Origin: Malaciobacter mytili LMG 24559 | GTDB taxonomy: Bacteria; Campylobacterota; Campylobacteria; Campylobacterales; Arcobacteraceae | Length of the DNA stretch: 64,000 bases | Direction of reading: 5' to 3' | Assembly (NCBI RefSeq): GCF_003346775.1 | Contig: NZ_CP031219.1 | Location: forward strand, 124,001-188,000 | In this document: positions 4,408 to 47,763 of the stretch, piece by piece | How the letters are laid out: each line of letters begins with the position of its first letter | Numbering within the stretch: the stretch's first letter is position 1 | Notes under the pieces: generated by a model | Databases searched by the model: none | The model's input: the letters and a program-made list of their open reading frames with translations, nothing else | What the model was told of the DNA's origin: nothing | Made by a program: the position numbers and the translations under genes

Positions 4408-4431
4408 ACTAAAGAGTTTTTACTCTTTAGT
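4408..4431. terminator. Bidirectional intrinsic terminator
   Basis: A perfect 10-base stem, ACTAAAGAGT and its complement, with a TTTT loop, lies between the convergent phnA and histidine kinase genes. On the minus strand it overlaps the kinase's last codons. U-tracts are short, so efficiency is uncertain. Confidence 0.6.
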
Positions 4432-6042
4432 TATAGGAAGTTTTATAATAAACTTTGCACCATCTTTTGTATTTTCTACTTCTAGTTTCCCATACATACT
4501 ATTTTCAATAATAGTTTTTGTCATATATAAACCAATTCCTGTACCTTTTCCTTCTTCTTTTGTAGTAAAATAAGGTTCAAATATTTTATTTTTTATTTTA
4601 TCCTCTATTCCTCCTGCATTATCTTCTATTTCAATAATAGCAGTCTCATTTTTTTTATAGCTTTTTACAACTATTTTTTTATTTTCAAGAGTAGTTTCTA
4701 TTAGAGCATCTTTGGCATTTGATAAAATATTTAAAATACTTTGTGAAAATTCACTTGAAAAACCAAATAACTCTATATCTTCTGCTAAATCTCTTTGGAT
4801 TTTAATATTATAGTGTTCAAATGTTGATTCTAATAAGAAGATAGTTTTTTCTATAGTTTCATTTATTTTAAAATAGCTTTTTGTTTTATTAGGTTTAAAA
4901 AAGTTTCTAAAATCATCTATGGTTTTAGACATATTTGTAGTTAAAGTATTTGTTTTTTCAACAGCTTTATTCATAAAGTTATTATCAAGTTCTCCTATTT
5001 GATATGCAAATTGAATATTTTGCATAACCAAACCTAAGGCATTTAAAGGTTGTCTCCATTGATGAGCAATATTTCCTATCATTTCCCCCATTGCTGCAAG
5101 TTTACTTTGTTGAATTAACAGTTGTTCTTGTTCTCTTTGTTTTTTTATCTCTTTTTCCACTTCAATTTGCAGTTTTTTATTTAATTTTTGTTGATATTGC
5201 ATATATGAAAAAAGAATATAAATTAAAATTACAAAAAGAATAGAGATTATTAGATTAAAAAATAAGATATTTTTTTTACCTTTTTGATAAATTTCCCTTT
5301 TATCTACTGTTTTAATACTAAGTTTAAAAGTATTGTTTTTATTAAAAAAGTCTATATAATTTATTAGATTTTCTTCATTATGCAATAAGGCTATTTTTAT
5401 ATTATCCAAATAAGAGCTAATAAAGTTAATATTATAGTGCTTATTTTCCACATCCGAAAAAGATATATTATCAAAAAGTGCAAAATTTAATTCTTCAAGT
5501 TTTAGTTTTCTACCACTTATTATATACCCTTTTGACTCTCCTGAAGAATCACTTTTTACAATAGGTAATTTTGCTAAATAAAAATGGCCATTTTGATATT
5601 TCATTATATCAGCAGTATGGGTTTTTGAAAAATTATTTAATATATAATAGATAAAGTTTTCTTTATTGTATATAGAATTTTCTTCTAAAAATTTAGAATA
5701 AATAATTTTGTTTTTCTGATTGATAAAAACCATAAATTCTAAACCTAAATCCTCTAAAGTAGAACTATTTTCTCTAAAGTTTTCATAGATATAATTATTA
5801 TATTTAGTTTCTATAAAATTATAAGTTTCATCCCACTTTGCGTAGTCATTAGTTGTTTGCTCTATCTTTTGTAGTTCTTTATCTATTTTTTTTGCAAAGG
5901 AATACAAACTTTTTATGTTTTCATTGTATTCTAACTCTTTAAAGTCTTTAATAAAGTAGTTATAACTTAAAAAATTAAATATAAAAAGATAAATAATTAA
6001 AATACTTAAAATTAGATAACTGTTTTGAAATATCTTTTTCAA
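4420..6042 (-). CDS. Sensor histidine kinase with CHASE4-type periplasmic domain
   Basis: 540 residues. A first membrane segment (about 9-28) is followed by a periplasmic domain (about 35-255) bearing the CHASE4 hallmark DYAKWDETYNF (67-77). A second segment (about 259-280) and a coiled coil follow, then the dimerisation helix with phospho-acceptor H327 in IAHQWRQPL. The ATPase domain has NILSNAKDAL (438-447), EIEDNAGGI (471-479), FEPYFTTK and GTGIGLYM (500-507), so all catalytic boxes are present. The H-box is of the DctB/NtrB-like type common in Campylobacterota. No response regulator adjoins, so this is an orphan kinase. CHASE4 ligands are mostly unknown. Confidence 0.92.
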   Translation of the reverse strand: MKKIFQNSYLILSILIIYLFIFNFLSYNYFIKDFKELEYNENIKSLYSFAKKIDKELQKIEQTTNDYAKWDETYNFIETKYNNYIYENFRENSSTLEDLGLEFMVFINQKNKIIYSKFLEENSIYNKENFIYYILNNFSKTHTADIMKYQNGHFYLAKLPIVKSDSSGESKGYIISGRKLKLEELNFALFDNISFSDVENKHYNINFISSYLDNIKIALLHNEENLINYIDFFNKNNTFKLSIKTVDKREIYQKGKKNILFFNLIISILFVILIYILFSYMQYQQKLNKKLQIEVEKEIKKQREQEQLLIQQSKLAAMGEMIGNIAHQWRQPLNALGLVMQNIQFAYQIGELDNNFMNKAVEKTNTLTTNMSKTIDDFRNFFKPNKTKSYFKINETIEKTIFLLESTFEHYNIKIQRDLAEDIELFGFSSEFSQSILNILSNAKDALIETTLENKKIVVKSYKKNETAIIEIEDNAGGIEDKIKNKIFEPYFTTKEEGKGTGIGLYMTKTIIENSMYGKLEVENTKDGAKFIIKLPITKE

Positions 6043-6245
6043 GATTATTCCTTATTTTCTTTTAATTATACACTTAATTATAAAACTATGCAAATTTAAA
6101 AAAAAAATTAAAAAATAAATAGATTTTTTAGGTAAATAAGAAGCAAAATTAAAATTTTTTTTTAAATTTAAATCCTAAAAAAGGCACTTCAGAAAAATTT
6201 TATTTCATTTAAGATTTTTTTTAGATTTTTTCTTTTTTTATTGAT

Positions 6246-6251
6246 TATAAT
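6246..6251 (+). promoter_or_regulatory. Candidate -10 element for the structured RNA
   Basis: A perfect TATAAT sits seven bases before the predicted 5' end of the RNA at about 6258. Upstream is T-rich rather than a clear -35 box, as is common for sigma-70 promoters of Campylobacterota. No other gene starts close by, which supports transcription of the RNA as its own unit. Confidence 0.55.
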
Positions 6252-6257
6252 TCGAAT

Positions 6258-6366
6258 GTAGAATAAGGGAAAAGTCCAAGGGAACCTGAAAACTCAAATA
6301 ATGCATAGACCGTGCTTTTGTAAAAGTTTTCAGGCTTGTTTATACTCTAAAAAAAGAGTATTTTAT
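6258..6366 (+). ncRNA. Structured non-coding RNA or 5' leader element, family not recognised
   Basis: About 105 bases bounded by a TATAAT (6246-6251) and an intrinsic terminator (TACTCT, six A, AGAGTA, then TTTTA; 6343-6364). Inside, CCTGAAAACT pairs with AGTTTTCAGG. The stem continues on its outer side as CAAG/CTTG after a four-base GGAA bulge on the 5' strand. A small GCAT/GTGC helix can form in the loop. The folding is specific and is punctuated like an independent sRNA. It does not match the signatures I know for SRP RNA, 6S RNA, tmRNA, RNase P RNA or common riboswitches. It could also be an attenuator for the gene at 6410, since the terminator lies just before that gene. Confidence 0.5.
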
Positions 6367-6409
6367 ACTAACAAATTAAACTTAACTAAGAAGTTAAATA
6401 GGAGCATGG

Positions 6410-6649
6410 ATGTTAAAATTTATATTTATTGCACTTACAGCAATTACACTATCTTTATGGGCAAATAATGACGTAATAGAAAGTGAAGATATTCCAGCAG
6501 TAAATATTTGCGATAAAGTTTATGATGATTGCGCACTAAAATGTGAAGGTAGTGATGTTACAAATGTTGAACAATGCTATGCAAATTGTGAAAAACTTTA
6601 TGATCAATGTCTTGAAGAAAAATCAACAGTACAACCAGAAGAGAAATAA
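6410..6649 (+). CDS. Exported cysteine-patterned mini-protein
   Basis: 79 residues starting at an ATG with GGAG five bases upstream. Residues 1-18 are a signal peptide (LKFIFIALTAITLSLWA, cleavage likely after Ala). The mature part of about 60 residues carries six cysteines with the mirror-image spacing C-x6-C-x3-C-x10-C-x3-C-x6-C (C34, C41, C45, C56, C60, C67). Its sequence is acidic and helix-favouring. The pattern predicts a disulfide-locked helical hairpin in the periplasm, similar in logic to twin-CX3C proteins. I recognise no family. It lies downstream of the structured RNA and 43 bases before the next small gene, so it may head that operon. Confidence 0.75.
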   Translation: MLKFIFIALTAITLSLWANNDVIESEDIPAVNICDKVYDDCALKCEGSDVTNVEQCYANCEKLYDQCLEEKSTVQPEEK

Positions 6650-6692
6650 TTAAATTATCTCCTTATTCTACTAATTATTTAGGAGAAGTACT

Positions 6693-6914
6693 TTGAGTTA
6701 TTTAAAGAATTTAGCAAATAGTCAACCTAAAGACCCTCTTATTGATGTTGTTTATGAAATTACAAATTGTATAAAAACAAAAAAAGATTTTGAACAAGCA
6801 TCATTAATGGTTAAACAAAATAATCTAACTTTAGAAGGAGTGATAAAAAGAACTTCTAAATTAGATTTAGAGGATTTAGCACTTTTAGCAGATAAAGTTA
6901 TAGCATTAAGCTAA
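6693..6914 (+). CDS. Small helical protein, paralogue of the gene at 8050
   Basis: 73 residues starting at a TTG, chosen because AGGAGAAG stands six bases upstream; there is no better ATG. No signal peptide or membrane segment, so cytoplasmic. Its core aligns with the 79-residue product at 8050-8289: PLIDVVYEI / NIQDSVYQI, KKDFEQAS / KEDYESAA and LALLADKVI / FAKLADVVI are equivalent blocks. Function unknown. The ribosome binding site can pair with TCTCCT at 6658-6663 (complement AGGAGA at 6681-6686), so translation may be modulated by that hairpin. It is followed after 24 bases by the SnoaL-like gene. Confidence 0.75.
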   Translation: MSYLKNLANSQPKDPLIDVVYEITNCIKTKKDFEQASLMVKQNNLTLEGVIKRTSKLDLEDLALLADKVIALS

Positions 6915-6938
6915 AAGATTGAAGATTAGAAGGACGAG

Positions 6939-7343
6939 ATGAAGACAAAAACAAATAAAGAGTTAGTAAAACTCTATTATGATGAGTTATGGAATAAACA
7001 AAATAAAGAGTATATAGATATTTTGTTTGATGATAATATTACATTTCATGGTTCATTGGATATTCAAACAACAGGTAAAAAAGAGTTTGAAGAGTATATG
7101 GATAAAATTTTAGAAGGTATTCCTAATCTTTATCATGGTGTAGAACTTATGGTAAATGAAGGAAATGTTGTAGCTGTAAGAGCAGTATATAACGGAACTC
7201 ATAAAGGAAAAATTTTCGAATATGAAGCTACAAATAAAAGAATAAAATATAATGGAGCTTCTTTTTTTAAATTTGATAATGGAAAAATAGTTGATATATG
7301 GGTTTTAGGAGATTTAGCAAATCTTCTTAAACAGTTAAAATAG
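6939..7343 (+). CDS. SnoaL-like / NTF2-fold protein
   Basis: 134 residues. N-terminal helix NKELVKLYYDELWNKQNKEY, then DNITFHGSL, GKKEFEEYM and a final strand FFKFDNGKIVDIWVLGD are typical of the SnoaL-like polyketide-cyclase or ester-cyclase branch of the NTF2 fold. Members bind small hydrophobic molecules in a cone-shaped pocket, and some are enzymes. No polyketide pathway is present here, so the ligand is unknown. The ATG follows AAGGACGAG, a strong ribosome binding site. The gene ends five bases before the dioxygenase start, which implies cotranscription and perhaps a shared substrate. Confidence 0.82.
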   Translation: MKTKTNKELVKLYYDELWNKQNKEYIDILFDDNITFHGSLDIQTTGKKEFEEYMDKILEGIPNLYHGVELMVNEGNVVAVRAVYNGTHKGKIFEYEATNKRIKYNGASFFKFDNGKIVDIWVLGDLANLLKQLK

Positions 7344-7348
7344 ATTTT

Positions 7349-8041
7349 ATGTATCAAATAAGTAATAATATCTATTGTCAAAAAGATATTTTAGATTTGG
7401 AAATACCAACTAAACTATTGACCAATCCATATTATGATTATCCATATTTAATAATAGAGAATTTTTTTTCACAAAAAATATTAAAAGAACTTTGTGAAAT
7501 GCTAAAGTCAAATAGTGATGTTGAAGATGCCAAAATTAGAAAAATAAATGATTTAAATATTCTTGATAAGAAATTAGATAAGAGTATTCGAAAAACAAAG
7601 ATTCATAAATTGCCTAAAAGATATTTAAATATTTATGAAAAAAAATTTATTTTTCATCAAAAAAAAATTGAAGAATTTTTCAAATTAGCTTTAACAACAT
7701 CAACCAAAGTTCAAGTTCTTCAATATACCGAAGGTTGTTTTTATAAAGCTCATAGTGATGATTCAAATATGATAGTTAAGGATGATAAACTAGTAGGCTT
7801 TTTACCTGTTGCATTACAAAGAAAAATTACAACAGTACTTTTTTTAGATGATGAGTATGAAGGTGGAGAGTTAGTATTTAATTATTTATATGACAAAGAC
7901 GGAAATGTTGTACAACTAAAAGGTAGAAGTGGAGATATGATAGTTTTTCTAAGTAATCCTGTTTACACCCATGAAGTAAAAGAGGTGATAAGTGGTAATA
8001 GGTTTACTCTAGTGCAATGGCATGATGCTATAATAAATTAA
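7349..8041 (+). CDS. 2-oxoglutarate/Fe(II)-dependent dioxygenase (prolyl-hydroxylase type)
   Basis: 230 residues. The C-terminal double-stranded beta-helix fold shows the iron triad H135-x-D137 (in AHSDD) and H208 (in YTHEV), plus the 2-oxoglutarate-binding R218 (in NRFTLVQW). VLFLDDEYEGGELVF is the usual strand of the prolyl 4-hydroxylase-like group. The first 110 residues contain a helical part with RKTKIHKLPKR, poorly conserved in the family. It should hydroxylate a protein or small-molecule substrate using O2 and 2-oxoglutarate in the cytoplasm. No substrate can be read from the sequence. The two paralogous small proteins on each side are candidates by context only. Confidence 0.9.
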   Translation: MYQISNNIYCQKDILDLEIPTKLLTNPYYDYPYLIIENFFSQKILKELCEMLKSNSDVEDAKIRKINDLNILDKKLDKSIRKTKIHKLPKRYLNIYEKKFIFHQKKIEEFFKLALTTSTKVQVLQYTEGCFYKAHSDDSNMIVKDDKLVGFLPVALQRKITTVLFLDDEYEGGELVFNYLYDKDGNVVQLKGRSGDMIVFLSNPVYTHEVKEVISGNRFTLVQWHDAIIN

Positions 8042-8049
8042 GGTTTAAT

Positions 8050-8289
8050 ATGCACAACGAAGAATTAGAGATGATTGGAAGTTTAAAAGAAAAGAGTATG
8101 AATATACAAGATAGTGTTTATCAAATAATCTTCTTTATTCATAATAAAGAAGATTATGAAAGTGCAGCACAAGTTATAATTAGACATAAAATTTCAATGT
8201 CAAAACTAGCAAAAAATACTTTTAAACTTACACTTTTACAATTTGCAAAACTTGCAGATGTAGTTATTAAAATAAAAAGGGGTAAGTAA
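8050..8289 (+). CDS. Small helical protein, paralogue of the gene at 6693
   Basis: 79 residues, cytoplasmic, with start ATG preceded by AAGG. It aligns over about 57 residues with the product at 6693-6914 (VYQIIFFIHNKEDYESAA / VYEITNCIKTKKDFEQAS, LADVVIKI / LADKVIAL), so the two arose by duplication and now flank the SnoaL-like and dioxygenase genes. Predicted all-helical. No domain recognised. It is the last gene of the apparent operon and ends in a hairpin shared with trxB. Confidence 0.75.
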   Translation: MHNEELEMIGSLKEKSMNIQDSVYQIIFFIHNKEDYESAAQVIIRHKISMSKLAKNTFKLTLLQFAKLADVVIKIKRGK

Positions 8290-42569: not shown

Positions 42570-44086
<1,517 letters not shown>

Positions 44087-44171
44087 CAGAGAAAAAACAG
44101 ATTAAGATTCAATTCTTAATCTGAAAGTCAATATATTCAGTTTATAAAGATTATTTAAAGATAGGTGAAAG

Positions 44172-44248
44172 GGGCCTATAGCTCAGCTGGCTAGAGCGCT
44201 CGACTGATAATCGTGAGGTCACAGGTTCAAGTCCTGTTAGGCCCACCA
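44172..44248 (+). tRNA. tRNA-Ile (anticodon GAT)
   Basis: 77 bases in the 16S-23S spacer. Acceptor GGGCCTA pairs with TAGGCCC, discriminator A and encoded CCA. D-arm AGCTCAGCTGGCTAGAGC, anticodon loop CTGATAA, T-loop TTCAAGT. The usual spacer tRNA. Confidence 0.97.
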
Positions 44249-44267
44249 TAAGAAAGATAATCTTTAT

Positions 44268-44343
44268 GGGGAATTAGCTCAGCTGGGAGAGCGCCTGCCT
44301 TGCACGCAGGAGGTCAGCGGTTCGATCCCGCTATTCTCCACCA
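44268..44343 (+). tRNA. tRNA-Ala (anticodon TGC)
   Basis: 76 bases. Acceptor GGGGAAT pairs with ATTCTCC (one G-U), discriminator A, encoded CCA. Anticodon loop CTTGCACG region with TGC, T-loop TTCGATC. It lies 19 bases after tRNA-Ile. Confidence 0.97.
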
Positions 44344-44619
44344 ACTTATAAATAAAAAAGAAGAAAATAAGGTGAGAAAAGAAACTTAATATAAGAACTA
44401 AAAGAGATTAGTTTTTATATTAGGTTTAAAAAACCTAAAAGTTATTTAAAAACACAATGTTAAAGTCTTTAAATTTTTCGAAAGAGTTTTATTGAAACGA
44501 AAGTTTTAATAAAAAATAAAATTTCAAAAAAGAAAACACAACTATCTTATGTTTAATAAGATAGTAGCCAAGGAATAATTATCAAAGGTAGATTAAATAG
44601 GAATATTTAATTTATACAA

Positions 44620-47528
<2,909 letters not shown>

Positions 47529-47644
47529 TTTTTACAATTCTTTGGTTTACTATCTTATTAAATATAAAAGTTGTGTAAAAGACTTTAACAAAAAACTCAC
47601 AAAGTTGAGTGTTAAGAATAGAAGAACTATTTTTATCACTCAAC

Positions 47645-47763
47645 TTGCTGGTGGATATAGCGAAGTGGAAATACCCAGACCCATACCGAACCTGGAAGTC
47701 AAGCACTTCAGCGCTGATAATACTGCAGCTTTCAGTTGTGGAAACGTAGGTCTCTGCCAGCTC
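47645..47763 (+). rRNA. rrf: 5S ribosomal RNA
   Basis: About 119 bases. The terminal stem includes GCTGG (47647-47651) with CCAGC (47757-47761). Core features ACCCAGACCCATACCGAACCTGG and GAAGTCAAGCACTTC are canonical. Flanking ACTCAA and TTGAGT extend the stem in the precursor, and TTTTTT after it may contribute to termination. Between 23S and 5S, GTTGAGTG and CACTCAAC (about 47600-47644) can pair, probably a processing structure. Confidence 0.95.

Follow-up and report, generated by a model that had tools for sequence, protein, structure and literature searches.

A conserved leader RNA and a predicted long-range pairing between its 5' end and an intergenic site in a cysteine-rich protein operon of Arcobacteraceae

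The window, that is, the whole stretch of 64,000 nt from Malaciobacter mytili LMG 24559 analyzed here, carries an rRNA operon at 42570-47762 (16S, tRNA-Ile, tRNA-Ala, 23S, 5S) and a short segment flanked by a divergent CHASE4 histidine kinase gene (4420-6042, minus strand) and the gene for a small cysteine-rich protein (6410-6649). A preliminary description had read this segment as an RNA of about 105 bases with its own promoter and terminator, either a small RNA or a leader with attenuation. The folding energy of the 121-nt segment is -28.2 kcal/mol, lower than in any of 200 dinucleotide shuffles (mean -17.5, z -3.3). What kind of RNA this is, and which gene it serves, is the question that we address here, beginning with the elements that place its 5' end.

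6174-6189, plus strand: DNA element CCTAAAAAAGGCACTT, upstream of the promoter, with near-identical copies before the leaders of relatives
6246-6251, plus strand: -10 box TATAAT of the leader promoter, seen in the sequence; TATAAT lies 6 to 7 nt upstream of the 5' box in 26 of 26 aligned loci
6258-6268, plus strand: 5' box GUAGAAUAAGG, nucleotides 1 to 11 of the predicted transcript, identified as one half of a perfect 11-nt inverted repeat, by covariation and by its two genomic occurrences

The promoter stood up to analysis, and the sequence upstream of the TATAAT is rich in T. Of the start sites in Campylobacter, 95.6% are found 4 to 8 nt past a -10 motif, and a periodic T-rich region replaces the -35 box (PMC3847290). 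Since this architecture is also present here, transcription is predicted to start at about G6258, meaning that base or an adjoining one. The element CCTAAAAAAGGCACTT is kept before the leaders of relatives whose upstream genes differ, has 16 near matches in its own genome versus 0 for the reversed control, and is possibly a regulator site. Two relatives (G092 and G099; loci L168 and L170) have the same promoter type directly before a SnoaL-like gene with no leader, cysteine-rich gene or boxes, an apparent empty version of the locus.

6410-6649, plus strand: gene for a small exported protein with six invariant cysteines (C-x6-C-x3-C-xn-C-x3-C-x6-C), defined by protein alignment and AlphaFold2

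The protein has 79 residues and a signal-like N terminus, and no Pfam or NCBIfam family was found for it. AlphaFold2 places helices at residues 33-45 and 53-73 with a mean pLDDT of about 85-89 over residues 31-70, and the protein is thus predicted to be a helical hairpin; its cysteine pattern resembles that of the alpha-hairpinins. One relative (G067) has the cysteine-rich domain duplicated in tandem. Homologues were sought in a family sample of 104 genomes from 20 genera, the named relatives being Arcobacter, Halarcobacter and uncultured Campylobacterales, with the cysteine-rich protein and then its alignment as query. This outperformed BLASTN of the leader, which across the family returned only short AT-rich noise except in G056 and G054, and a DNA pattern search of named genomes gave six relevant loci plus one unrelated planctomycete match. 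The gene is present in 33 of the 104 genomes, with protein identity among relatives falling to about 30%, and a homologous leader lies upstream of most of the genes found. Its ribosome-binding site and reading frame are kept right behind the leader in relatives, which bears out the placement before an exported cysteine-rich protein that had been pointed out earlier.

6278-6402, plus strand: P1-P2-P3 leader RNA motif, as matched by covariance model R1
6285-6334, plus strand: P1 hairpin with arms CCUGAAAACU and AGUUUUCAGG and apical GCAU-AGACC-GUGC (6303-6315), from folds and compensatory changes in 7 of 8 pairs
6341-6360, plus strand: P2 hairpin AUACUCU-AAAAAA-AGAGUAU, from folds and covariation, not terminator-like
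6363-6402, plus strand: conserved single strand UAUACUAACAAAUUAAACUUA and P3 hairpin, from alignment and folds, ending at the ribosome-binding site of the cysteine-rich gene

P1 contains the perfect 10-bp stem of the preliminary description (CCTGAAAACT/AGTTTTCAGG, 6285-6294/6325-6334) and, enclosed by that stem, the small GCAT/GTGC helix. The outer extension of CAAG with CTTG, bulged on one side by GGAA, can be seen in the sequence, but it is only partly predicted by the fold and is absent from relatives. The apical helix GCAU/GUGC, changed to ACAU/GUGU in G188 and G036, encloses UUGGCC in relatives and AGACC in the window, and the apical loop is highly conserved. Compensatory changes, which had been proposed as a check on the fold, were found in relatives for both hairpins. 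In P1, 92.4% of cells are paired with double-sided changes in 7 of the 8 pairs across 18 distinct sequences, giving a covariation score of 0.645 versus 0.19 in shuffles and only 26-59% pairing in slid controls; these figures are read from arms hand-picked from individual folds, which favors pairing, because RNAalifold on alignment A4 misses the outer helix, whose position shifts. In P2, 5 of 6 pairs change on both sides. Comparison among relatives thereby shows P1 and P2 to be hairpins under selection, retained even without the gene or the long-range box described below.

P2 is followed by UUUUAU in the window. In relatives, a CAUUUAUACUAAC-like sequence takes the place of the U-tract and leads into a gene, and a terminator pattern scan of 5500-7500 found none, so that the proposed terminator is not confirmed. 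The two forms of RNA that depend on it lack support: the terminated 105-base small RNA, with no terminator in the scan and no U-tract after P2 in relatives, and the transcription attenuator, since a terminator/antiterminator pair needs a terminator and none was found. With the ribosome-binding site and cysteine-rich gene kept behind the leader and the terminator not conserved, the part of the earlier suggestion that is retained is the leader.

Covariance model R1, built on alignment A4 of 18 leader copies including that of the window, matches 21 of the 104 family genomes in 9 of 20 genera (E <= 0.01), one match (G018, antisense to an unrelated gene) probably being due to chance. Among 399 sampled genomes of the order, R1 matches one that lies outside the family (G188). 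On the window, R1 gives a single match of 83.2 bits (E 3.2e-15) to a copy that is itself among the 18 model sequences, and a search of the rest of the same genome returned no significant second copy. Beyond the preliminary description, we observe a second P1-P2-P3 module 1 to 3 kb downstream, within the same cluster, in eight relatives. Behind these downstream copies (L121, L127, L102, L114 and others) the next frame is decayed (MLKLF or MLKFFGTCLSF, each followed by a stop) or absent; in G090 only a signal peptide is left behind the module, and three downstream copies have no promoter. Since they precede decayed or absent frames, the leader module is kept independently of the cysteine-rich gene. 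A search of Rfam 15 with 6200-6420 gave nothing above the gathering threshold, the best matches below it being eukaryotic or due to chance, in agreement with the earlier statement that the RNA fits no known family. Our literature search found no description of this leader, with Stav et al. 2019 (PMC6429828) compared by its text. We thus consider P1-P2-P3 a new RNA family outside Rfam 15, set apart from the motifs of PMC6429828 by their text description only.

Such a module might be an aptamer. In that case P1-P3 would form a translational riboswitch or a protein-binding leader, and any long-range pairing would be part of its expression platform. We consider this unlikely, although the apical loop is highly conserved, the module is duplicated in the cluster, sometimes promoterless, and in a subset of relatives a helix of 8 to 9 nt is possible between UUUAUACU and the start-codon region AGUAUAAAUG, which exceeds shuffled sequence; this helix is weak in the window. 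Against it, the apical motif or all of P1 is absent in three relatives of the same genus and in several others, with the remainder of the leader kept, which is unusual for an aptamer, and the P1 interior is inverted in G084. There, at locus L044, the inner part of P1 (CGCACCGCCAAATGCAT) lies reversed between intact arms, as though recombination at the arms had flipped it.

6661-6671, plus strand: intergenic box CCUUAUUCUAC, partner of the 5' box, from the inverted repeat, covariation and locus-wide preference
6680-6684, plus strand: Shine-Dalgarno (SD) sequence AGGAG of the next gene, able to pair with a UCUCCU that overlaps the intergenic box, from sequence and folding
6693-6914, plus strand: next gene, an open reading frame of 73 aa with a TTG start and without Pfam or NCBIfam family, the candidate regulated gene

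A further feature that the preliminary description had not covered is a pairing of the 5' end with a site behind the cysteine-rich gene. The intergenic box begins 12 nt past the stop codon of this gene, 9 nt ahead of the AGGAG of the next, and is exactly complementary to the 5' box over 11 bases at a distance of about 400 bases. In the 3.04-Mb genome, the 11-mer GUAGAAUAAGG has two sites only, which are the two boxes of its own operon. Across 25 genomes, 97.5% of 275 cells are standard pairs, with 42-57% paired in slid registers, and 13 cells are compensatory double changes versus 4.3 in shuffles, a count that 0 of 500 shuffles reach. These changes are seen at both variable ends, position +1 (G-C 15, A-U 6, U-A 1) and position +11 (G-C 17, A-U 6); G-U wobbles account for both of the single substitutions that remain in the core, and local disruption is found in one genome (G073). 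The core UAGAAUAAG is invariant, which is more than pairing alone demands. Duplex energies range from -10.7 to -19 kcal/mol (z -1.9 to -5.4), and the flanks lengthen the helix lineage by lineage, e.g., UAGAAUAAGAAGAAU with AUUCUUCUUAUUCUA in G097, reaching 15 bp in G036 and 14 bp in the outgroup-family genome G188.

The preference extends over the whole locus, the own intergenic region being the best-pairing stretch for the 5' box in 23 of 23 genomes. Both boxes are lost together in four gene copies (G085, G055, G067 and the second copy of G060), two of which have the shortest junctions, namely, a 9-nt spacer in G055 and overlapping genes in the second copy of G060. Of 23 mRNAs folded at full length, from the leader through the gene to the intergenic region, 19 have predicted ensembles dominated by the pairing; the mRNA of the window is among them, with 10.3 of the 11 box pairs formed. 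For the downstream leader copies without a cysteine-rich gene, box pairing is not significant, though two are suggestive. Comparison among relatives shows the pairing of the two boxes to be under selection, closing the first gene in a loop of about 400 nt.

A perfect 11-nt inverted repeat flanking one gene may also be a feature of the DNA: it could form the terminal repeats of a cassette that moves or inverts, or supply a looping regulator with two half-operators. The empty arrangement in G092 and G099, where the same promoter type stands before SnoaL, would suit this. We regard it as very improbable: the repeat pair is single-copy in each genome, where several copies would be expected of a mobile cassette, the promoter lies outside the repeat, and neither half-site is palindromic. 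Moreover, complementarity is kept by compensatory changes while the intervening protein falls to about 30% identity, and the core substitutions are compatible with G-U pairing. A somewhat better, yet still poor, case can be made for action in trans, whereby termination at P2 or a processing step would free the leader as a small RNA whose 5' seed binds the intergenic site. The seed does occupy the very 5' terminus, where the local fold leaves it unpaired, and UUUUAU follows P2 in the window. However, the terminator is not conserved, and since the 11-mer has a complement nowhere in the genome except in its own operon, such an RNA would have one target, its own mRNA.

The reading that we prefer, to which we give a probability of about one in two, is that the leader is the structured 5' end of a polycistronic mRNA encoding a periplasmic cysteine-rich protein and downstream genes, and that the pairing is a cis-acting long-range switch. 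The 5' box would pair in cis with the intergenic box on its own mRNA and so sequester a strand otherwise able to mask the SD of the second gene. In the window, UCUCCU and AGGAGA form a predicted masking helix of -6.4 kcal/mol, and local masking of the second SD is also strong in G056, G084 and G062. When the box pairing is imposed, predicted accessibility of the second SD rises from 0.35 to 0.55 (Wilcoxon p = 3e-4, in a comparison without shuffled control), and that of the first gene's SD stays flat (0.35 to 0.36). Locally, the intergenic box does not mask the second SD more strongly than shuffled spacers do (Fisher p = 0.15), and the SD effect may therefore be incidental. Because the 5' box would capture the masking strand, we propose that the second SD is free only on mRNAs with an intact 5' end; slower decay from the 5' end would also be expected, since the pairing buries the 5' terminus. 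P1-P3 would be a separate module beside the ribosome-binding site of the first gene, probably tuning its translation via a protein or ligand. More tentatively, the arrangement could amount to a check of message integrity coupled to the new leader family, with the second gene translated only from mRNAs whose 5' end is intact.

The gene that would be so controlled is not constant. Between genera, the cysteine-rich gene is followed by SnoaL, M42 peptidase, 2OG oxygenase or small unknown proteins, and the box stays with the cysteine-rich gene while the second gene changes. In the window, the products of 6693-6914 and 8050-8289 are related small proteins without a family that share the motif ...YEIT/...LADxV; such proteins accompany the cluster throughout the family, often in multiple copies. 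That the box travels with the first gene fits at least as well with the possibility that the pairing serves this gene only, burying the 5' end, marking the 3' boundary and locking or stabilizing the mRNA as in hok and aapA, with effects on the second gene incidental. This possibility, which we hold to be doubtful but not far-fetched, gains from several observations: in most genomes the predicted +1 base is the first to pair, box pairing is not significant in leader copies that lack a cysteine-rich gene, SD masking does not exceed that in shuffles, and a long-distance interaction between 5' and 3' ends is described for the H. pylori aapA3 mRNA (PMC6733600). It is at odds with the predicted SD accessibility of the first gene, which the pairing leaves unaffected, and with a polycistronic transcript for which the terminator scan gives no apparent 3' end at the intergenic box.

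Under the switch reading, expression of a downstream gene would depend on the integrity of the first bases of the message. The pairing is kept with compensatory changes in at least nine genera of one family and in one genome outside it, within an ordinary accessory operon, and its site between two genes would make an unusual link between the start of an mRNA and the expression of the next gene. What is new here is the combination of a leader RNA family, which comes with a ready covariance model, and a long-range pairing between the 5' end and an intergenic site.

To our knowledge, most bacterial mRNAs described with a long-range pairing of the 5' end come from type I toxin genes. In the mRNAs of hok/sok and aapA/IsoA, as here, a short exported or membrane open reading frame is spanned by a 5' end that pairs beyond it, and compensatory change reportedly conserves the long-distance pairing of hok (Gultyaev and colleagues, 1997, cited in PMC6733600). 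In contrast to those systems, the partner site here is intergenic, inside an operon, and in place of a hydrophobic peptide of about 30 residues the first gene encodes a predicted soluble six-cysteine helical hairpin. No promoter-like sites were listed on the minus strand of 6100-6700 by a scan that does not model Campylobacterota promoters, which have no -35 box. By analogy, then, the operon mRNA resembles a type I toxin mRNA in its 5'-3' interaction, without being established as one. Structured RNA candidates confined to Arcobacter are the unnamed intergenic motifs reported from Arcobacter sp. L by Stav et al. 2019 (PMC6429828); the text of that study, as distinct from its motif sequences, describes no motif with a cysteine-rich gene or a long-range pairing, and earlier detection of the leader hairpins among these motifs is conceivable. 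The riboswitch and leader motifs of Rfam 15 are likewise structured 5' leaders with covarying helices that end at a ribosome-binding site, but none matches at gathering scores and none convincingly below. For polycistronic mRNAs, both translational coupling and SD-sequestering intergenic hairpins are known. The latter have, as here, an intergenic strand able to mask the SD of the next gene, and whereas in translational coupling the freeing agent is a translating ribosome, here it would be the 5' end of the mRNA itself, about 400 nt upstream.
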